A stretch of 35,707 bases of DNA from Bacteroidaceae bacterium (lineage in GTDB: Bacteria > Bacteroidota > Bacteroidia > Bacteroidales > Bacteroidaceae), in NCBI GenBank assembly GCA_017471185.1, contig JAFUVZ010000031.1:1-35707 (forward strand), given 5' to 3'. Position numbers and translations under genes: made by a program. Under the pieces are notes generated by a model. That model worked only from the letters and a program-made list of their open reading frames with translations, did not search any database and was not told where the DNA came from. Each line of letters starts with the position of its first letter. Positions within the stretch are counted from its first letter, which is position 1. This document shows positions 1,501 to 33,872 of the stretch, piece by piece.

Positions 1501-2499
1501 ATGATAATGGAGGATATTATACAGCCCATCAGCAGGGACTTGCTGAAAGCTGAGCTGACAGAAGACAAGCGCTTGAGAATGACCAACAAGAGTCATAACC
1601 AGATCTATATCGTGACGGCTCATAATGCGCCCAACACCATGAAGGAGATAGGCAGATTGCGCGAGATAGCGTTCCGTGCAGCTGGCGGAGGTACAGGCAA
1701 GTCGATGGATATCGATGAGTTTGACATCATGGAAAACCCTTACAAGCAGCTGATTGTGTGGGATCCCGAGGCTGAGGAAATCTTAGGCGGATACAGATAT
1801 ATATTAGGTACTGACGTGCAGTATGGTCCTGACGGACAGCCTTTATTAGCTACGGCGCACATGTTCCATTTCTCAGAGAAGTTCCTCAAGGAATATATGC
1901 CTACCACTATTGAGCTGGCCCGCTCTTTCGTGACACTGGAATATCAGGGCACGAGGGCAGGCAGCAAGGGCCTTTTCGCGCTTGATAACCTGTGGGATGG
2001 CCTGGGTGCCCTGATGGTGATCAAGCCTAACGTGCGCTATTTCTTCGGCAAGGTGACGATGTATCCTTCTTATATCCGCAAGGGTAGGGATATGATCCTC
2101 TATTTCCTGCGCAAGCATTTCGGCGATAAAGACGAGCTGATTACGCCCATGAAGCCGTTGGTGATTGAGAGCGACGAGCAGGAACTGGCGAAGCTCTTCC
2201 CGAATGACACTTTCAAGGAAGACTATAAGGTACTGCATAGCGAGATTCGTAAGATGGGGTATAACATTCCTCCCCTGGTGAACGCTTATATGAACCTCAG
2301 TCCTACCATGCGAATGTTCGGCACAGCCATCAACTATGGCTTCGGTGATGTGGAAGAGACTGGCATTCTGATAGCTGTGGATGAGATCTTGGAAGAAAAA
2401 CGCATGCGACATGTGGAATCTTTCCTCAAGGACGAACCCAATGCCGCACGCTTTACTTCTGGTCAGAACAAAGTCATTTATAAAATGAAGAATGAATAA
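1501..2499 (+). CDS. glsB: Glycine-lipid N-acyltransferase, OlsB-like GNAT (GlsB-like)
   Basis: This 332-aa protein is of the OlsB / hemolysin-type acetyltransferase (Acetyltransf_5) family. It shows the conserved stretch IGRLREIAFRAAGGG near residue 42 and ELARSFV plus YIRKGRDMI-type blocks in the middle, as in enzymes that N-acylate amino acids using 3-hydroxyacyl-ACP. In Bacteroides, GlsB makes the N-acyl-glycine intermediate that GlsA then O-acylates, so the two genes form a two-step pathway. There are two in-frame ATGs (1501 and 1507); the first is listed. The last codons lie inside a 7-nt-periodic tract that runs past the stop towards the convergent dgt gene, so the C-terminal KMKNE may be repeat-derived. 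Confidence 0.8.
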   Translation: MIMEDIIQPISRDLLKAELTEDKRLRMTNKSHNQIYIVTAHNAPNTMKEIGRLREIAFRAAGGGTGKSMDIDEFDIMENPYKQLIVWDPEAEEILGGYRYILGTDVQYGPDGQPLLATAHMFHFSEKFLKEYMPTTIELARSFVTLEYQGTRAGSKGLFALDNLWDGLGALMVIKPNVRYFFGKVTMYPSYIRKGRDMILYFLRKHFGDKDELITPMKPLVIESDEQELAKLFPNDTFKEDYKVLHSEIRKMGYNIPPLVNAYMNLSPTMRMFGTAINYGFGDVEETGILIAVDEILEEKRMRHVESFLKDEPNAARFTSGQNKVIYKMKNE

Positions 2500-2525
2500 T
2501 TGCCAATGATCAATTGTCAATTACA
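2484..2525 (+). repeat. Heptad tract 1 (glsB/dgt junction)
   Basis: Six consecutive 7-nt units each begin with AAT (for example AATTGCC, AATGATC, AATTGTC). They start within the last codons of glsB and run to the end of the convergent dgt gene, filling the entire gap. Confidence 0.75.
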
Positions 2526-3938: not shown

Positions 3939-4373
3939 ATGAAGGTACAAATCATCAATAAATCTCACCATCAGTTGCCACAATATGCCACTCCTCAGTC
4001 GGCAGGAGTGGACTTGCGGGCTAATCTGAATGAGCCAATCACGTTGAAGCCTTTACGGCGGGCGTTGGTTCCTACCGGATTGTATATCGCCTTGCCTCCG
4101 GGCTTTGAGGCACAGGTTCGCCCTCGTAGCGGACTGGCGATAAAAAAAGGAATCACGGTGTTGAACTCTCCCGGGACGATAGATGCCGATTATCGTGGAG
4201 AAATATGCATCATCCTGGTTAATCTGTCAGAAGAGCCTTTTGTCATCAACGATGGTGAGCGAGTGGCTCAAATGGTGATAGCCCGTCATGAGCAGGCTGA
4301 ATGGCAAGAGGTGGAAGTGCTGGATGAGACAGAACGTGGTGCTGGTGGATTCGGACACTCAGGACAACGATAA
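3939..4373 (+). CDS. dut: dUTP diphosphatase (dUTPase)
   Basis: This 144-aa trimeric dUTPase hydrolyses dUTP to dUMP and pyrophosphate, preventing uracil incorporation and feeding dTMP synthesis. All five family motifs are visible in order: [28 protein letters not shown] (catalytic Asp, ring-stacking Tyr), [11 protein letters not shown], and the glycine-rich C-terminal [10 protein letters not shown]. Length is standard. It is the first gene of a plus-strand run into the envelope cluster. Its stop codon runs directly into the heptad tract that precedes the TPR gene. Confidence 0.96.
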
Positions 4374-4421
4374 ACATTGAACATTGAACATTGAATATTG
4401 AACATTGGCAATTGAAAATTA
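4373..4421 (+). repeat. Heptad tract 2 (dut/TPR junction)
   Basis: Five units of AACATTG or AATATTG lie at 4373-4407, followed by two degenerate units. The tract begins on the last base of the dut stop codon and reaches into the start region of the TPR gene, whose candidate TTG starts are part of the repeat. Confidence 0.85.
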
Positions 4422-6121
4422 GATTATCCATATTATTGTTTTGCTTGGGATTAGCAATGCCTGTGTTGCTGCAAGCCCAAAATGCAGATGAGCAGGACAG
4501 GAAGTACGATTACTATTTCCATGAAGCGACGCGTCTGCGCATTCAGAAACAGTATGACGCATCGTTTGACATGCTGCAGCATTGTCTGGCCATCCGCCCT
4601 AACTCGGCTTCTGCACTCTATGAACTGGCTCAGTATTATATTGTGCTGAAACAAACTGACTTGGGAATGGAAACGCTGGCTAAGGCTGTGGAGAATGCTC
4701 CTGACAACTATTGGTATGCGCAAGGCCTCGCTAACCTTTATATGCAGCAGAACAAACTCGATCAGGCGGCTGAGTTGCTGGAGGATATGGGGAAGCGTTT
4801 CCCTGGAAAGATTGACATACTATACAGTCTTCTGCAGATTTATAACCGTCAGGCTAAATATGACCGTTCGATAGAATTGCTCAACCGATTGGAGGTCCGT
4901 ATGGGCAAGAACGAACAGATTTCCATGCAGAAATTCGCTATCTATGACCAGCAGGGAGAAGAGGATAAAGCGATGGCTGAGCTGCAGTCGTTGGCAGATG
5001 AGTTCCCCACAGACTACCGCTATCAGGTAATCTTGGGTGATGCTTATATGCAGAAAGAGAAATATGACCAGGCTTATGCCATCTATCAGAAAATATTGAA
5101 GGCGGAGCCTGACAATGCGCTGGCTATGTACTCATTGGCTGCTTATTATGAGCAGACAGGGCAGACTGAGAAGTATGACAACCAGCTGAATTCTGTTTTG
5201 CTGAACAGGAAAGTGGATGCTGAGACTAAAGTGGATGTGATGCGCCGTTTGATTATCCGTAATGAAGGTAATCAGAAAGACAGTACCCTCGTCATCAATC
5301 TTTTTGACCGTATCATGGAGCAGGAACCCGATGATTCACAACTGCCTATGCTCTATGCGCAATACCTTTATTCCAAGAATATGACGGACAAGGCAATACC
5401 TGTGCTGCAACAGGTACTCCAGATTGAGCCTACCAATACCACAGCCCGTATGACTCTTTTAGGAGAAGCTGTTAAGAAAGAGGATTATGCAGGGGTGATT
5501 GATATCTGCCAGACAGGAACGGAAGCCAACCCTGATATGCTGGAATTCTATTATTACTTGGCTATCGGCTATAACCAGACGCAACAAACGGACAGCGTAA
5601 TCAGCGTTTGTGAAAGGGCATTGACTCATGTGACGGATGAGAGCGACCAGAATGTGGTGAGTGACTTTTATGCTATCATGGGCGATGCTTATCATACCAA
5701 GAAGTCGATGAGCGACACCTACCGGGCATACGAAAAAGCCTTGGAGTACAATTCCAACAACATCATGGCACTCAATAACTATGCCTATTATCTGTCTTTG
5801 GAGCGTCGCGACCTGGATAAGGCTGAGGAGATGAGCTACAAGACGGTGAAGGCAGAGCCTAATAACGCTACTTACTTAGATACCTATGCCTGGATTCTTT
5901 TTGAAAAAGGCAACTATGAGCAGGCGAAGATTTATATCGACCAGGCGTTGCAGAACGACGAGGCTTTGAGTGCTGAAGTGCTGGAGCATTGTGGCGATAT
6001 TTATTTCCATACGGGCGAAACGGAAAAAGCCCTGGATTTCTGGCAGCAGGCCAAGGAAAAAGGAAGCCAGTCGGCTACCATAGACAGGAAGATCAGGCAG
6101 AAGAAATACATCAGGGAATAA
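4391..6121 (+). CDS. Secreted or periplasmic TPR-repeat protein
   Basis: A protein of up to 576 aa built almost entirely of tetratricopeptide repeats after an N-terminal export signal (hydrophobic LSILLFCLGLA, likely cleavage after VLLQAQ). TPR solenoids are protein-docking scaffolds, and the location points to the periplasm or periplasmic face of the outer membrane. The start is uncertain: TTG at 4391 and TTG at 4412 (giving the more typical MKIRLSILLF) both lie in or beside the heptad tract, and the first ATG (4457) falls inside the signal peptide. It is followed by the DUF4292 lipoprotein and an M23-like protein, a grouping I recall from other Bacteroidales and which suggests a shared envelope function. 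The exact role is unknown. Confidence 0.8.
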   Translation: MNIEHWQLKIRLSILLFCLGLAMPVLLQAQNADEQDRKYDYYFHEATRLRIQKQYDASFDMLQHCLAIRPNSASALYELAQYYIVLKQTDLGMETLAKAVENAPDNYWYAQGLANLYMQQNKLDQAAELLEDMGKRFPGKIDILYSLLQIYNRQAKYDRSIELLNRLEVRMGKNEQISMQKFAIYDQQGEEDKAMAELQSLADEFPTDYRYQVILGDAYMQKEKYDQAYAIYQKILKAEPDNALAMYSLAAYYEQTGQTEKYDNQLNSVLLNRKVDAETKVDVMRRLIIRNEGNQKDSTLVINLFDRIMEQEPDDSQLPMLYAQYLYSKNMTDKAIPVLQQVLQIEPTNTTARMTLLGEAVKKEDYAGVIDICQTGTEANPDMLEFYYYLAIGYNQTQQTDSVISVCERALTHVTDESDQNVVSDFYAIMGDAYHTKKSMSDTYRAYEKALEYNSNNIMALNNYAYYLSLERRDLDKAEEMSYKTVKAEPNNATYLDTYAWILFEKGNYEQAKIYIDQALQNDEALSAEVLEHCGDIYFHTGETEKALDFWQQAKEKGSQSATIDRKIRQKKYIRE

Positions 6122-6203
6122 TTGGTAATGGAGAATGGAAAATGGAGAATGGAAAATGAATAATAGTAAACGGTCAACGTTCAACGTTCAATTGTCAATG
6201 ATT
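6117..6203 (+). repeat. Heptad tract 3 (TPR/DUF4292 junction), the longest
   Basis: About eleven 7-nt units remain in perfect phase from 6127 to 6203, drifting from AATGGAG/AATGGAA types to AACGTTC and AATTGTC types; one or two weaker units precede them. The tract starts on the TPR stop codon and extends through the presumed N-terminal codons of the next lipoprotein. Confidence 0.88.
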
Positions 6204-6734
6204 GTGCTTTTATCATTGTTGCTTGTGGGTTGCAAGAGCAGCAAGACAATCGTAAAGCCTGATGACGTGGCGCAACAGTATCTGTCATCGAAGGTGGAAC
6301 TTACTATCCCCCACGGTGATGCAGTCTTTACTGTGAACGGCACGATGAAGATGAAGCAGGGAGAACTGGTTCAGATGTCATTCCTCATGCCAATCTTCCG
6401 CAGTGAGGTGGCGAGGATTGAAGCTACGCCAAGCTATCTGCTGATGGTGGACCGCATGAACCGTCGCTATGTCAAGGCTAATCAGAAAGTGTTGAGGGAC
6501 TACCTGCCTGCTGACAGCTATAGAAGACTGGAGAAACTCATACAAGAAGCTGCCAAGCCTGATGGCAAGGCTACGATGACCGGTCAGGAACTGGGTATCA
6601 AACAACTTGCAAAGGCTAAGATAGAACTTTATGATTTTTCTTCAGACCCTATAAATGTCGCTCCCACTGAAATTACCTCACGTTATCGGGAGGTAACGAT
6701 GGAGGAGCTTCTGCAATTGCTTATGAGTTTATGA
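6156..6734 (+). CDS. DUF4292-family outer-membrane lipoprotein
   Basis: About 192 aa. The signal peptide core IVLLSLLLVGC ends in a lipobox (L-V-G-C) followed by KSSKT. The rest fits the Bacteroidetes DUF4292 family, a beta-rich domain with pattern FTVNGTMKMKQGELVQMSF, which I think resembles the LolA/LolB fold. I chose ATG 6156 because it supplies a charged N-region (MNNSKRS); ATG 6198 gives a very short uncharged signal, and earlier starts (MENGEW) are translated repeat. The stop overlaps the next ATG by four bases (ATGA), so the two genes are translationally coupled. A lipoprotein-handling role is possible but is inference. Confidence 0.78.
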   Translation: MNNSKRSTFNVQLSMIVLLSLLLVGCKSSKTIVKPDDVAQQYLSSKVELTIPHGDAVFTVNGTMKMKQGELVQMSFLMPIFRSEVARIEATPSYLLMVDRMNRRYVKANQKVLRDYLPADSYRRLEKLIQEAAKPDGKATMTGQELGIKQLAKAKIELYDFSSDPINVAPTEITSRYREVTMEELLQLLMSL

Positions 6735-9247: not shown

Positions 9248-11065
9248 ATGACAATGAATCATGTTTCTGCATTAGTTGATCTCCAGGTGGAAAAGCTGGG
9301 TGCAGATTTTGCAGTATTGAAGTATCGCAACGATAAGGGCGAGTGGATAGACATTACATGGGGACAGCTGCAGGCGGATGTCCGTCTGGCTGCCAATGCT
9401 TTAGCTGTGCTCGGCGTTCAGGAAGAGGAGAATGTGGGCATATTCTCACAGAACAAGCCTGAGAGCTTTGTGGTGGACTTTGCTGACATGTATAACCGCG
9501 CTGTCACTGTACCGCTCTACGCTACCTCATCACCAAGCCAGACGCAATATATAGTGTCTGATGCAGGTATTAGGGTCTTGTTTGTGGGAGAGCAATATCA
9601 GTATGACACGGTGATGCAGGTTTTGCCTCAGTGCCATTCGCTCGAGAAGATCGTGATTTATGACCATAAGGTGACGCGTCATCCTGGTGACAAGATATCT
9701 GTGTATTTCGATGAGTTCCTTCACATGGGTGACGGTCTGCCTAAAAACGACTTGGTGATGGAGCGTAAGGCTAAGGGTAAGGCAGAGGATCTGATTTGGC
9801 TGCTTTATACCAGTGGCACTACTGGAGAGCCAAAAGGCGTGCAACTGTTACATGCCAGTTTGTTAGACCAGTTCCAGAACCATCGTGCCAGACTGGGTGC
9901 TCAGATGCAGCGGGGTGACGTGAGCCTAAGCTTCTTGCCGTTGACGCATGTGTTTGAACGCGGATGGAGCTATGTGTGCCTCTATGAAGGTATTACGATT
10001 GCTGTAAACTTGCGTCCGCAAGAGGTGCAGCAGGCCATCAGGGAAGTACACCCTACCCATATGTGCAGTGTGCCGCGCTTCTGGGAAAAGGTATATATTG
10101 GTGTACAGCAGAAGATAGCTGGCGAAAGCGGCGTTAGGAAAGCGATGATGGAAAATGCCATCAAGGTGGGCAAGGAGTACAACGTTGATTATCTGAATCA
10201 GGGTAAGAAACCTCCTATGTGGTTGTCTCTGAAATATAAGTTCTATGAAAAGACGGTTATCAACACTTTGAAGAAAGTCCTGGGCCTGGAGAACGCTAAG
10301 TTCTTCCCAACCGCTGGAGCTGCTGTAAGTGCCGAGGTGTGCGAGTTTGTGCATGCGGTTGGCATAAACATGATAGTAGGCTATGGCCTTACAGAGTCTT
10401 TTGCAACGGTGAGCTGTTATCCGTTGGAACACTATGTGCCTGGGTCCGTGGGGTTGCTGATTGACAGTATCAAGGTGAAGATTGATCCGGAGAACGAAGA
10501 GATATTGCTGAAAGGCCCTACCATCATGAAGGGCTATTATAAGAAAGAGGAAGCTAATCGTCAGGCATTCACTGCAGACGGCTATTTCCGTACAGGTGAT
10601 ACGGGCTATCTGAAGGAACGTACATTGTTCTTGAAGGAGCGAATCAAGGACTTGATGAAGACTTCCAACGGAAAATATGTCAGTCCACAAGCATTGGAAG
10701 CTAAGCTGGGCATTGACCGCTTTGTGGAGCAGGTGGCTATAGTGGCTGACGGCAGGAAGTTTGTGAGTGCACTGATTGTCCCGAACTATGAGGCTCTGAA
10801 AGAGTTTGCCACACAGAAGGGCATCTCCTATGATACGATAGAGGAATTATTGAAGCATCCGAGGGTGCTGGACCTTTATCAGACACGTATTGATACCCTT
10901 CAGCAGGAGTTCGCTCACTACGAACAGATCAAGCGCTTTACTTTGCTGCCTGAACCGTTCAGCATGGAGAATGGCGAACTTACCAACACCTTGAAACTGC
11001 GTAGAAGTGTGGTGGCTCAAAACTACAAGACGCTGATTGATAAGATGTATGAGGAAAATGGATAA
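9248..11065 (+). CDS. fadD: Long-chain fatty acid--CoA ligase (AMP-forming)
   Basis: A 605-aa adenylate-forming enzyme of the FadD15 type that activates fatty acids to acyl-CoA through an acyl-adenylate. The AMP-binding P-loop is at about residues 187-197 (YTSGTTGEPKG). Further family blocks are YGLTESF (adenine and acyl pocket), YFRTGDTGYL (ribose-binding Asp) and LKERIKDLMKTSNGKYV (hinge and C-terminal lid, catalytic Lys region). Length matches the roughly 600-aa subfamily. Cytoplasmic, probably membrane-associated. Two ATGs (9248, 9254) are possible. The stop lies inside heptad tract 4, which leads into the next small gene. Confidence 0.9.
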   Translation: MTMNHVSALVDLQVEKLGADFAVLKYRNDKGEWIDITWGQLQADVRLAANALAVLGVQEEENVGIFSQNKPESFVVDFADMYNRAVTVPLYATSSPSQTQYIVSDAGIRVLFVGEQYQYDTVMQVLPQCHSLEKIVIYDHKVTRHPGDKISVYFDEFLHMGDGLPKNDLVMERKAKGKAEDLIWLLYTSGTTGEPKGVQLLHASLLDQFQNHRARLGAQMQRGDVSLSFLPLTHVFERGWSYVCLYEGITIAVNLRPQEVQQAIREVHPTHMCSVPRFWEKVYIGVQQKIAGESGVRKAMMENAIKVGKEYNVDYLNQGKKPPMWLSLKYKFYEKTVINTLKKVLGLENAKFFPTAGAAVSAEVCEFVHAVGINMIVGYGLTESFATVSCYPLEHYVPGSVGLLIDSIKVKIDPENEEILLKGPTIMKGYYKKEEANRQAFTADGYFRTGDTGYLKERTLFLKERIKDLMKTSNGKYVSPQALEAKLGIDRFVEQVAIVADGRKFVSALIVPNYEALKEFATQKGISYDTIEELLKHPRVLDLYQTRIDTLQQEFAHYEQIKRFTLLPEPFSMENGELTNTLKLRRSVVAQNYKTLIDKMYEENG

Positions 11066-11091
11066 TGGAGAACTAATAAATAATAATTGAT
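11057..11091 (+). repeat. Heptad tract 4 (fadD/small-ORF junction)
   Basis: Five 7-nt units start with AAT, AAC or AAA (first two AATGGAT and AATGGAG). The tract spans the fadD stop, and its end coincides exactly with the ATG at 11092. Confidence 0.8.
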
Positions 11092-11240: not shown

Positions 11241-11720
11241 ATGCCGCAAGAGATAGAGCGCAAGTTCCTGGTCACGGATGACAGCTACAAACGCCTTGCC
11301 GTTTCCCACAGCCACATTATGCAGGGCTATATCTGTAGTGGGAAAGGCAAGACTGTGCGTATCCGTATTCGTGATGATAAGGGGTACCTGACCATTAAAG
11401 GCGCTTCTGACGCCGCAGGACTGAGCCGTTATGAATGGGAAAAGGAAATCAGCTTGGAAGATGCCCGTGACTTGATGAAACTGTGCGAGCCAGGTGTGAT
11501 AGATAAAATACGCTATCTGGTTCCATCGGGTAAGCATACTTTTGAGGTGGATGAGTTTTTCGGGGATAATGAAGGACTTGAGATGGCAGAAGTGGAACTT
11601 GCCTATGAAGAGGAACCTTACGTAAAACCAAGCTTTATAGGTAAAGAGGTGACAGGCGACCGTCGCTACTATAACTCTCATTTAAGGCTGAATCCTTTTT
11701 GTATGTGGGGCAGAGAGTAG
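11241..11720 (+). CDS. CYTH-domain protein (triphosphate tunnel enzyme)
   Basis: A 159-aa CYTH protein. The N-terminal signature EIERKFLV (E-x-E-x-K) is present, followed by alternating acidic/basic strand motifs such as KTVRIRIRD, YLTIKG and YEWEKEI, and a late EVDEFFGDNEGLEMAEVEL acidic block. These line the tunnel that binds triphosphate and metal. Bacterial members hydrolyse inorganic triphosphate or nucleotides; a few make cAMP. Substrate cannot be decided here. Short single-domain form without a CHAD domain. Five nt separate it from the small membrane protein, and heptad tract 5 leads into prfB. Confidence 0.88.
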   Translation: MPQEIERKFLVTDDSYKRLAVSHSHIMQGYICSGKGKTVRIRIRDDKGYLTIKGASDAAGLSRYEWEKEISLEDARDLMKLCEPGVIDKIRYLVPSGKHTFEVDEFFGDNEGLEMAEVELAYEEEPYVKPSFIGKEVTGDRRYYNSHLRLNPFCMWGRE

Positions 11721-11725
11721 GGGAT

Positions 11726-11760
11726 AATGTTCAATTTTCAATGTTCAATTTTCAACAAAA
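11726..11760 (+). repeat. Heptad tract 5 (CYTH/prfB junction)
   Basis: Alternating AATGTTC and AATTTTC units, four in all, then AACAAAA, make exactly five units (35 nt) that end at the prfB ATG (11761). The tract starts six bases after the CYTH stop codon. Confidence 0.88.
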
Positions 11761-12873
11761 ATGATAACGAGTGATCAACTGAAAGAAATAAAGGAAAGAT
11801 GTGAGGCGCTGAACCGCTATCTGGATATTGATGGGAAGAAGATGCAATATGAGGAGGAACAGCTCCGTACGCATGATCCCGACTTCTGGAATGACCAGAA
11901 GGCTGCTGAAGCCCAGATGAAGAAAGTTAAGGAACTGGAGAAGTGGCTTAACGGGTATAAAGAGGTGAGTTCACTGACTGAAGAATTGCAGCTGGCTTTC
12001 GACTTCTACAAGGATGAACTGGTGACAGAAGAAGAGGTGGACGCAGCTTATAAGAAGGCAATGGATGCAGTCGAGGCGTTGGAACTGAAGAATATGCTGC
12101 GTGACGAGGCTGATAACATGGACTGTGTGTTGAAGATCAACTCAGGTGCTGGCGGTACTGAGAGCCAGGATTGGGCAAGCATGCTGATGCGTATGTATTT
12201 GCGCTATGCAGAGACACATGGTTATAAGACGAATGTCTCTTATCTTCAGGAAGGTGATGAGGCTGGCATCAAGACCTGTACCATTGAGATCCTGGGCGAC
12301 TATGCGTATGGCTATCTGAAAGGTGAGAATGGTGTGCATCGTCTGGTACGCGTATCTCCTTATAACGCCCAAGGCAAACGTATGACTTCTTTTGCATCAG
12401 TGTTCGCTTCCCCTTTAGTGGATGATACCATTGAAGTGAAGGTAGATATGGCTTGCGTATCATGGGATACTTTCCGAAGCAGTGGCGCAGGTGGACAGAA
12501 CGTGAACAAAGTAGAGTCTGGTGTGCGTCTGCGCTATCAGTATAAGGACCCTTATACGGGTGAGGAAGAAGAGATCTTGATTGAGAATACGGAAACGCGA
12601 GACCAACCGAAGAACCGTGAGAACGCTATGCAGCACTTGAAGTCTATCCTTTACGATAAGGAACTCCAGCATCGTAATGAGGAGAAGGCCAAGGTGGAGG
12701 CTGGCAAGAAGAAGATAGAATGGGGCTCTCAGATACGCAGTTATGTGTTTGACGACCGTCGTGTAAAGGATCATCGCACCAACTATCAGACCTCTGATGT
12801 AAATGGTGTGATGGATGGTAAGATTGACGAGTTTATCAAGGCGTATCTGATGGAGTTTTCTTCAAAGGATTAA
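11761..12873 (+). CDS. prfB: Peptide chain release factor 2
   Basis: 370 aa, class I release factor for UGA and UAA. The peptidyl-hydrolysis GGQ motif is at residues 244-246 (SSGAGGQNVNK). The stop-codon-recognition tripeptide region reads RVSPYNAQGKR, so the usual SPF of RF2 is SPY (199-201). The residue four before the first Gly of GGQ, Thr or Ala in E. coli strains, is Ser here. The reading frame is continuous from ATG: there is no in-frame TGA near codon 25, so the autoregulatory +1 frameshift of many prfB genes is absent. Start fixed by the heptad tract ending at ATG. Confidence 0.95.
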   Translation: MITSDQLKEIKERCEALNRYLDIDGKKMQYEEEQLRTHDPDFWNDQKAAEAQMKKVKELEKWLNGYKEVSSLTEELQLAFDFYKDELVTEEEVDAAYKKAMDAVEALELKNMLRDEADNMDCVLKINSGAGGTESQDWASMLMRMYLRYAETHGYKTNVSYLQEGDEAGIKTCTIEILGDYAYGYLKGENGVHRLVRVSPYNAQGKRMTSFASVFASPLVDDTIEVKVDMACVSWDTFRSSGAGGQNVNKVESGVRLRYQYKDPYTGEEEEILIENTETRDQPKNRENAMQHLKSILYDKELQHRNEEKAKVEAGKKKIEWGSQIRSYVFDDRRVKDHRTNYQTSDVNGVMDGKIDEFIKAYLMEFSSKD

Positions 12874-12875
12874 GG

Positions 12876-12923
12876 AATGGATTGTGATTAATATACGATA
12901 CCAATGTTTAACGTCCAATATTC
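12876..12923 (+). repeat. Heptad tract 6 (prfB/MgtC junction), weaker
   Basis: Units AATGGAT (12876) and AATATAC (12890), then AATGTTT, AACGTCC and AATATTC at 12903-12923, with a one-base phase slip between the two groups. The last three units overlap the first codons of the called membrane-protein ORF. Confidence 0.55.
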
Positions 12924-25761: not shown

Positions 25762-25803
25762 ATATTATCTCCATTAATCATTATCCATTCTCCATTCTCC
25801 ATT
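25762..25803 (-). repeat. Heptad tract 7 (GNAT/argG junction)
   Basis: Reading the minus strand, five in-phase units (AATGGAG, AATGGAT and AATGATT types) run from 25803 to 25769, then a weaker unit. The tract starts on the stop codon of the GNAT gene and ends one base before the argG ATG. It lies on the sense strand of the operon, as the plus-strand tracts do for their genes. Confidence 0.85.
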
Positions 25804-32801: not shown

Positions 32802-33839
32802 ATGGAAATAATCATTGGATTGCTGATTATAGCGATAGGCGCGTTCTGCCAGAGTAGTTGCTACGTGCCTATCAATAAGATAAAGGACTGGAGTTGGGAA
32901 AGCTATTGGATCGTGCAAGGTGTATTTGCATGGCTGGTTTTCCCAGTCTTGGGAGCTTTGCTGGCAGTGCCTGAAGGTCGTCAGTTCTATGAGATGTTCG
33001 CCTCGGCTCCCTCATTCAATCTCTGGATGACCGTCTTCTTTGGTGTACTGTGGGGCGTAGGAGGTCTGACTTTTGGTCTCTCTATGCGTTACTTAGGAGT
33101 GGCTTTAGGTCAGAGCATCGCCTTGGGTACTTGTGCTGGTTTGGGTACCATCATGGGACCTGTGCTCCTGAATATCTACTTCCCAGAGCAGAAACCTTTG
33201 GAGAGCCTGACAGCTGCAGTGATTATCGGAGTGGTGGTTACTTTGATCGGTATCGCCATCATCGGTATAGCTGGTCACATGAAAGCTCAAAGTCTTAGTG
33301 AGGAAGAGAAGAAGGCTGCCGTGAAGGACTTTAACTTCCCCAAAGGTATTGTGATTGCCCTTTTGGCTGGCTTCATGAGTGGCTGCTTCAACGTAGGCTT
33401 GGAGTTTGGTAAGGACATCAACTTTGGTGAAATGACCAATCCGATGTTCAGCACCTTGCCTGCTACCTTGTTGGTTACACTCGGTGGTTTTGTTACCAAT
33501 GCGATCTATTGCTTTTATCAGAACAGCAAGAACAAGACGTGGGGCGATTATAGCAAGACGGCTATTTGGGGTAACAACTTGTTGTTCTGCGCCTTGGCAG
33601 GTTTGTTGTGGTATAGCCAGTTCTTCGGACTTAGCTTAGGAAAAGGTTTTCTCACTGAAAGTCCTACGCTGACAACCTTCGCTTTCTGCATCTTGATGGC
33701 GTTAAACGTTGTTTTCAGCAATGTCTGGGGTATCATTCTCAAGGAATGGAAAGGCGTTTCTCAGAAGACCATCGTGGTACTGTTGATTGGTATCGTTGTG
33801 CTGATTGTATCAACCTTCGTGCCTGAACTTTTGAAATAA
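32802..33839 (+). CDS. rhaT: L-rhamnose/proton symporter
   Basis: 345-aa integral membrane protein of the RhaT (DMT superfamily) type with about ten helices. Characteristic stretches are GAFCQSSCYVPINKIKDWSWE at the N-terminus, GLTFGLSMRYLGVALGQSIALG, and LLAGFMSGCFNVGLEFGK. Imports L-rhamnose across the inner membrane with protons. One nt after the isomerase gene, so translation is probably coupled. The specific family strengthens the rhamnose assignment of the operon. Confidence 0.93.
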   Translation: MEIIIGLLIIAIGAFCQSSCYVPINKIKDWSWESYWIVQGVFAWLVFPVLGALLAVPEGRQFYEMFASAPSFNLWMTVFFGVLWGVGGLTFGLSMRYLGVALGQSIALGTCAGLGTIMGPVLLNIYFPEQKPLESLTAAVIIGVVVTLIGIAIIGIAGHMKAQSLSEEEKKAAVKDFNFPKGIVIALLAGFMSGCFNVGLEFGKDINFGEMTNPMFSTLPATLLVTLGGFVTNAIYCFYQNSKNKTWGDYSKTAIWGNNLLFCALAGLLWYSQFFGLSLGKGFLTESPTLTTFAFCILMALNVVFSNVWGIILKEWKGVSQKTIVVLLIGIVVLIVSTFVPELLK

Positions 33840-33872
33840 TATAAAAGGGATAATTGATAATTAAGAATTGAA
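33838..33872 (+). repeat. Heptad tract 8 (rhaT/rhaD junction)
   Basis: Three clear AAT-phase units (AATTGAT, AATTAAG, AATTGAA) at 33852-33872 and two weaker ones before them, 35 nt in all. The tract starts on the rhaT stop codon and ends exactly at the rhaD ATG (33873). Confidence 0.7.

Follow-up and report, generated by a model that had tools for sequence, protein, structure and literature searches.

The window, by which we mean the whole stretch of 35,707 nucleotides of Bacteroidaceae DNA that was analysed, comes from a relative of Bacteroides and carries tracts of degenerate seven-base units. They appear to belong to a class of heptamer repeats that has already been described, in a form particular to this lineage, and do not look like a new device. 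The origin of these tracts could be explained by slippage together with template switching, anchored on a short conserved core, and we give this explanation about an even chance of being right.

Tracts of period seven in the window and the genome

The original prediction named eight tracts of 7-nt period at gene junctions, and seven of them scored above shuffled sequence. The lag-7 score was taken as the best match count over 28 positions, and each tract was compared with 500 local dinucleotide shuffles. None of the 500 shuffles reached the scores of the tracts at 4373..4421 on the plus strand (26/28; class A, AACATTG being ATTGAAC rotated, at the junction between the dUTPase and TPR-protein genes), 6117..6203 on the plus strand (23/28; a composite in which a purine-rich class is followed by a GTTCAAT-like class), 25762..25803 on the minus strand (22/28; purine-rich class, AATGGAG on that strand, at the start of the argininosuccinate synthase gene, assigned with Pfam), 11726..11760 on the plus strand (21/28; GTTCAAT class, between a CYTH gene ending at 11720 and a release-factor gene starting at 11761), and 11057..11091 on the plus strand (20/28; purine-rich class, overlapping the stop of an AMP-binding gene that ends at 11065). 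Scores of 18/28 were obtained for the tract at 2484..2525, which has no assigned strand (p 0.002), and for the weak plus-strand tract at 33838..33872, between the RhaT gene and a class II aldolase gene (p 0.008). Tandem Repeats Finder reported period 7 at 4373 (5 copies), 6127, 6169, 11726, 25770, and 33849. The eighth candidate, at 12876..12923 on the plus strand, is indistinguishable from shuffled sequence (13/28, p 0.142), and its own lag-5 score is higher (14).

Lag 7 is the strongest short period of the window. At a threshold of at least 18/28, seven regions were found, which are precisely the seven confirmed tracts, whereas 100 block shuffles averaged 0.41 regions with at most 2 in any one; with at least 20/28, there were five regions versus 0.02. 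Chance or base composition as the source of the tracts can be invoked insofar as the junctions appear AT-rich by eye, and such a reading holds for 12876..12923. It was rejected for the other seven because shuffles that preserve the local dinucleotides fail to reproduce the period, and the probability that chance makes the tracts is practically negligible. Tandem repeats of a distinct family, with 22-base units, lie at 56-100 and 125-181.

The window is contig 34 of a genome of 85 contigs (2.76 Mb, about 80% complete), from which 61 stretches, the window included, were sampled (1,041,416 of 2,763,526 bases). These 1.04 Mb contain 93 lag-7 tracts. The first 412 kb (62 tracts) were picked around similarity hits and form a rich sample; the next 629 kb (31 tracts), made of 40 stretches on contigs drawn by number with the earlier contigs left out, are likely to be a poor one. 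The true density is probably between about 49 and 150 tracts per Mb. The lag spectrum of the 629 kb comprises 31 regions at lag 7, 21 at lag 14, 20 at lag 21, 14 at lag 22 (a family separate from the heptads), and 0-8 at other lags, and the first 256 kb of this sample gave 8 lag-7 regions versus 0 in 10 block shuffles. The excess of period 7 that the original prediction proposed to look for is present in this sample.

Genes were called simply as longest ORFs, with uncertain starts. By these calls, 75 of the 93 tracts lie at junctions (63 tandem, 10 convergent, and 2 divergent) and 18 within ORFs, in a sample where intergenic sequence amounts to 76 kb of 1,041 kb (about 7%), so the tracts are not equally common away from junctions. 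Two of the 18 lie at stretch ends outside any ORF (L048:121 and L050:1), and others may be ORF artefacts. Divergent junctions are poor in tracts (2/105 vs 73/689, p 0.002). Tracts had been proposed to run from the upstream stop to the next start; 33 of the 63 tandem tracts begin within 15 nt of a called stop, and 20 of the 63 end within 15 nt of a called start. The proposal fails for 2484..2525, which is flanked by convergent genes (a plus-strand GNAT-domain gene ending at 2499 and a minus-strand HD-domain gene ending at 2526) and where 2484-2499 encodes the final codons of the GNAT-domain gene, so that the tract overlaps coding sequence. Oppositely oriented pairs of heptad tracts, about 15 to 90 bases apart, were seen at L125:12564-12674, L035:18983-19181, and L040:7200-7370.

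Core, classes, and orientation of the units

The unit was studied in the 76 of 93 tracts that could be phased on ATT, the other 17 being dropped. Over their 573 units, the three ATT positions are conserved at 90, 96, and 95%, and the identity of adjacent units by position is 0.92, 0.96, 0.96, 0.69, 0.88, 0.70, and 0.77 (502 pairs). A phase-free control gave 0.949 for the best three columns versus at most 0.906 in 200 permutations. Two classes are dominant: class A, which is ATTGAAC and its variants, and class B, which is ATTCTCC, ATTATTC, ATTATCC, and their variants; the commonest words are ATTGAAC, ATTCTCC, and ATTATTC, and the word list is common to many loci. AATGGAG is class B reversed. 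AACATTG and AATGTTC, which had been taken for differing units, are reverse complements in rotation and, hence, one unit, that of class A, on opposite strands; the supposedly conserved AAT or AAC at the head of each unit is partly a choice of rotation.

Units of class A have a similarity of 0.64-0.76 within a tract versus 0.57 between tracts, and those of class B 0.49-0.60 versus 0.45; the within-tract values are, therefore, modestly above the between-tract level, and they show no steady fall over distance. Sixteen composites contain two or more units from both classes; 14 of them run cleanly from A to B on one strand, none is reversed, and two are treated here as mixed, namely L124:608 and L126:10199, the latter having been scored as A-then-B by the script because of a tie. 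The exact pattern was found in this genome five times as A-then-B and never as B-then-A; elsewhere in 158 genomes of the genus, it was found once as A-then-B and nine times as B-then-A, one each. Eight of these nine share the ending CATTGATC and could represent a single conserved string, and the ninth, from G012, is compatible with a genuine tract of reversed order. Replication strand was considered as the cause of the composite order, and the result, 9 to 6 by the sign of the GC3 skew over 15 composites, is uninformative.

In tandem junctions, class B reads AATGGAG on the sense strand in 28 cases and on the other strand in 7, with two ties (p 0.0005); where class A units are absent, the ratio is 16 to 2, one case being tied. 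Class A is oriented 17 to 15, with two ties (p 0.86). The claim that tracts lie on the sense strand of the downstream gene holds, as a preference, for the AATGGAG-like class and not for the ATTGAAC class. In stretches of at least 10 kb, the class B strand follows the gene strand (Fisher p 0.001) and not the GC3 skew (p 1.0); the class A strand correlates with the GC3 skew (p 0.009). Within ORFs, class A prefers the strand that lacks TGA by 11 to 1; one would expect this, because ATTGAAC in the sense direction puts a stop in every frame.

The class B bias hints at a degree of selection around gene starts, and it would be explained if some tracts had been co-opted as purine-rich leaders, start codons, or parts of signal peptides. 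The composite tract of the window has eleven in-phase units from 6127 to 6203, which agrees with the number originally given for 6117..6203, and it likely holds the start codon and the N-terminus of the next gene, a DUF4292 gene at 6135..6734 on the plus strand (Pfam PF14125; N-terminus read by eye), whose ORF runs from 6135 out of the tract into a signal-peptide-like start. One could go further and suppose that the tract is a selected translation device, that is, a leader or AUG ladder coupling the downstream gene to the upstream stop. The sense-strand position of class B, its tracking of the gene strand and not of the skew, the likely DUF4292 start, and the near absence of structure in the 48 non-composite tandem tracts (mean -0.058 kcal/mol per base) are consistent with this idea. 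However, in relatives the gene order is the same although tracts are missing, tracts also occur between convergent genes and inside ORFs, and class A has no orientation bias, so that a general coupling device, as proposed at the outset, is not upheld, and we consider a selected device of this sort unlikely. In the portions of Baez et al. (2019; PMC6847099) available to us, moreover, AUG is described as rare near start codons in Bacteroidetes, and initiation in Flavobacterium as tuned by structure and by A at -3; yet the tracts add an AUG every seven bases, which is an unexpected leader.

Another possibility is that the tracts are RNA hairpins acting as transcription terminators or attenuators. 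L045:2164 does fold well (-36.1 kcal/mol, z -7.4), as do L124:608, L085:1404, and L084:15457, and two relatives, G123 and G085, carry at the convergent junction of the window a hairpin that looks by eye like an ordinary terminator. The mean z values on the two strands, however, are about -0.7 and -1.0 for 17 composites (a by-eye list, the stricter count being 16), -0.1 and -0.3 for the 48 non-composite tandem tracts, and 0.2 and -0.1 for 10 convergent tracts, intragenic tracts and those of more than 160 bases being left out of the fold analysis. A general hairpin role is not supported, the fold energies of most tracts being near the shuffle level, and a reading of the tracts as terminators or attenuators is very unlikely.

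Relatives, paralogues, and conserved proteins

Junctions were compared in a panel made of this genome and eight relatives, with 76-77% nucleotide identity over the TPR gene. By TPR protein, the nearest named records are uncultured Bacteroidaceae, Bacteroidales, or Prevotellaceae, and three of the nearest are labelled yak omasum, goat reticulum, and sheep rumen. At the dUTPase/TPR junction or in the adjoining start of the TPR gene, heptads (lag-7 score of at least 18) are present in 7 of 9 genomes with units that vary by genome (such as AACATTG, AATGGTC, GGTTATA, and AATTGAT); the G012 tract lies about 80 bases beyond the site orthologous to 4373, in the start of the TPR gene. The very different word GGTTATA/GGTTATG occupies L104:1601-1676 (G109), at the junction orthologous to 4373. 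The TPR/DUF4292 start region has heptads in 4 of 9 genomes, again with differing units (lag-7 scores of 23, 21, 19, and 17, the last, in G094, being accepted by eye). At the convergent junction (2484-2525), they are present in 2 of 8 genomes, namely this one and G098, G109 having given no anchors; G012, G007, and G124 have 15-18 nt without heptads there, G123 and G085 have the hairpin mentioned above, and G094 has another insert. Heptads were found in 0 of 9 panel genomes at the divergent promoter and in 0 of 8 and 0 of 6 at two other tandem junctions, the rest being without anchors; the junctions at 11065 and 11720 had no anchors in any relative fetched.

Between paralogous regions of this genome, one junction carries 8 units in one copy and 3 in the other, and a second junction shows gaps of 6 and 14 bases; the total lengths of the two paralogous pairs differ by 25 and 20 bases, which are not multiples of 7. 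The suggestion that the tracts are slippage products or expandable spacers is partly supported: junction tracts differ or are absent among relatives, and the paralogues have 8 versus 3 units and one gap of 14 bases, although the gap of 6 bases and the total differences of 25 and 20 bases do not fit a clean 7-base step. Three tandem copies of AAYDGTC, counted with overlapping matches, occur 124 times in G098, 99 in G012, 55 in G124, 19 in G001, and 0-10 in the other 14 of 18 genomes, and 33 times in this genome. This triplet was found in 23 of 247 genomes of the order; the backward control, a rotation of YAACTGD that includes TAACTGA, was found in 20 of 247, 17 of which lack the forward word, the control count being one of the degenerate pattern. 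More than one list of heptamer words, therefore, seems to be present in the order.

Conceptual translation of 14 of the 18 intragenic tracts placed three in signal-peptide-like starts (VALSIVNCQLSIAQ or near). Three genes, at L036:2056, L036:14373, and L097:17186, have near-identical heptad-encoded signal-peptide-like ends (VALSIVNCQLSIAQ and similar). Orthologues of in-frame tracts were compared for three genes, those for SufS, RadA, and an RND pump. In SufS, the loop between FG and GSVISF is five residues long in G123, G085, G007, and four outgroup genomes, and match coordinates indicate that G124 has no insert either. Heptads, which give a loop peptide of the NCQLSIV type, fill the loop in four genomes (this one, G012, G098, and G094), and G109 has a faint version; the insert is of equal length in this genome and G012, with base changes, and the loop of another SufS-like copy in G012 is unrelated. 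On the structure 1i29 (CsdB/SufS, presumably from E. coli), the insert falls between aligned segments that end at query residue 327 and restart at 354, one chain residue apart. RadA has clear heptads in G124 and G012, with less extensive traces in this genome and in other members of the clade, and heptads were found in 0 of 4 outgroups. The RND pump has heptads in this genome and a short one in G124; none were found in G012, G094 (two copies), or G098, and two outgroups carry a longer loop of unrelated sequence.

A palindromic repeat of about 65-80 bases, with a core like CTCGGCATAGCTCAAGCAAGCTTGGCTCTGC, was observed in 32 of 158 genomes of the genus. Within the clade, it lies in or beside heptad arrays; the sites noted for the repeat are L042:15842, L124:513, L130:198 and 1117, L032:732, L040:5758, L132:17523, L051:17263, and L054:5240-5420. 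Its hairpin arms differ in a compensating way, and the 7-base register of the heptads is apparently undisturbed; outside the clade, the printed copies are mostly without heptads, with G093 as an exception. For three copies whose 78-base core is identical, one flank counts 2, 2, and 3 heptads and the opposite flank 3, at least 8, and 2, and two copies are flanked by arrays of the same word order that differ in length.

Origin of the tracts and known heptamer systems

How might such tracts arise and change? Slipped-strand mispairing and template switching with a 7-base step could produce them, with the short core ATT, usually CATT (AATG on the other strand), as the anchor. The core would permit realignment and strand switching between tracts, and words would thereby mix and spread. 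Selection would leave tracts where extra sequence is harmless, and some of them might be co-opted as an unstructured purine-rich leader, as a start codon, or as part of a signal peptide. Slippage with strand switching would account for the period, the core, the shared words, the hot sites, and in-frame survival. It leaves the A-then-B order of the composites unexplained, and the flat similarity within tracts is unlike simple one-unit slippage.

The class order, this flat similarity, and the length differences that are not multiples of 7 point instead to copying in blocks, perhaps by a small mobile element, a transposase, a reverse transcriptase, or a single-strand process with a preference for ATT-containing targets. 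Words in common across many loci, differing units at a matching loop or junction in several genomes, and a palindromic repeat that sits within arrays with their register apparently kept, two copies sharing word order and not length, would also fit block copying. Against it, neither the ends nor the length are constant among the tracts listed, and the composite order is not kept elsewhere in the genus, where G012 has one reversed exact match. We regard block copying as rather improbable, though to be taken seriously. A dedicated process of this clade that inserts ATT-anchored heptamers wherever sites are permissive, in frame within housekeeping proteins as well as between genes, and that sets the order of the two classes is distinctly unlikely; if it existed, spacers, start regions, and protein loops would be continuously rebuilt from a common word list.

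Slippage and template switching, the reading that we prefer, can be set beside several known systems. The STRR heptamers of cyanobacteria and the P6b repeats of the Nostoc tRNA-Leu intron consist of heptanucleotide units that are degenerate and species-specific; the present tracts resemble them in these general respects. Long simple sequence repeats were reportedly defined by exact repetition in the work of Mrazek et al. (2007), and the units here differ from perfect repeats of this type in being degenerate, positions 4 and 6 agreeing in about 70% of the 502 pairs. The sections of PMC4679880 available to us, which summarise that study, state that among long simple sequence repeats with units of 5-11 nt, heptanucleotides are the most abundant class in most genomes and that a link to polymerase contact length has been proposed.

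The original prediction knew of no described element of this kind. However, heptamer repeats just upstream of starts have been described in Beggiatoaceae, cyanobacteria, and five Bacteroidetes, as can be read in the same sections (PMC4679880). There, MacGregor (2015) reports TAACTGA direct repeats that are mostly intergenic, often a few bases from the start codon, and patchy among species; relatives have shorter intergenic regions without obvious repeats, a few sets lie inside ORFs, and indels between two Cyanothece strains are mostly in 7-nt increments. The present tracts are, as far as these sections go, like the TAACTGA repeats in being tandem seven-base units, mostly intergenic and patchy among genomes. 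The TAACTGA study followed one exact heptamer, related heptamers rarely being repeated in its main genome, whereas here, degenerate words surround an ATT core, two classes follow one order, and tracts lie in frame in loops of conserved enzymes. Rickettsia palindromic elements, in the text of PMC10969869 available to us, are palindromic, about 150 bp long, and encode conserved peptides as in-frame insertions in unrelated genes. The tracts are like them, or like a MITE, in their in-frame presence in conserved genes (SufS, RadA, and the RND pump) but unlike them in that ends and length vary among the listed tracts and there is no general palindrome. In searches of an open-licence library, no listed publication was recognised as treating degenerate ATT-core heptamers in Bacteroidales.

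Annotators cannot rely on start codons and protein ends called close to such tracts. Heptamer repeats have mostly been regarded as oddities of intergenic DNA; here they can be traced at orthologous sites of nine genomes, among them the SufS and RadA loops and signal-peptide-like starts, as a source of new spacer and protein sequence. A core that is kept while the positions between vary offers a cause for the seven-base step that can be put to the test.
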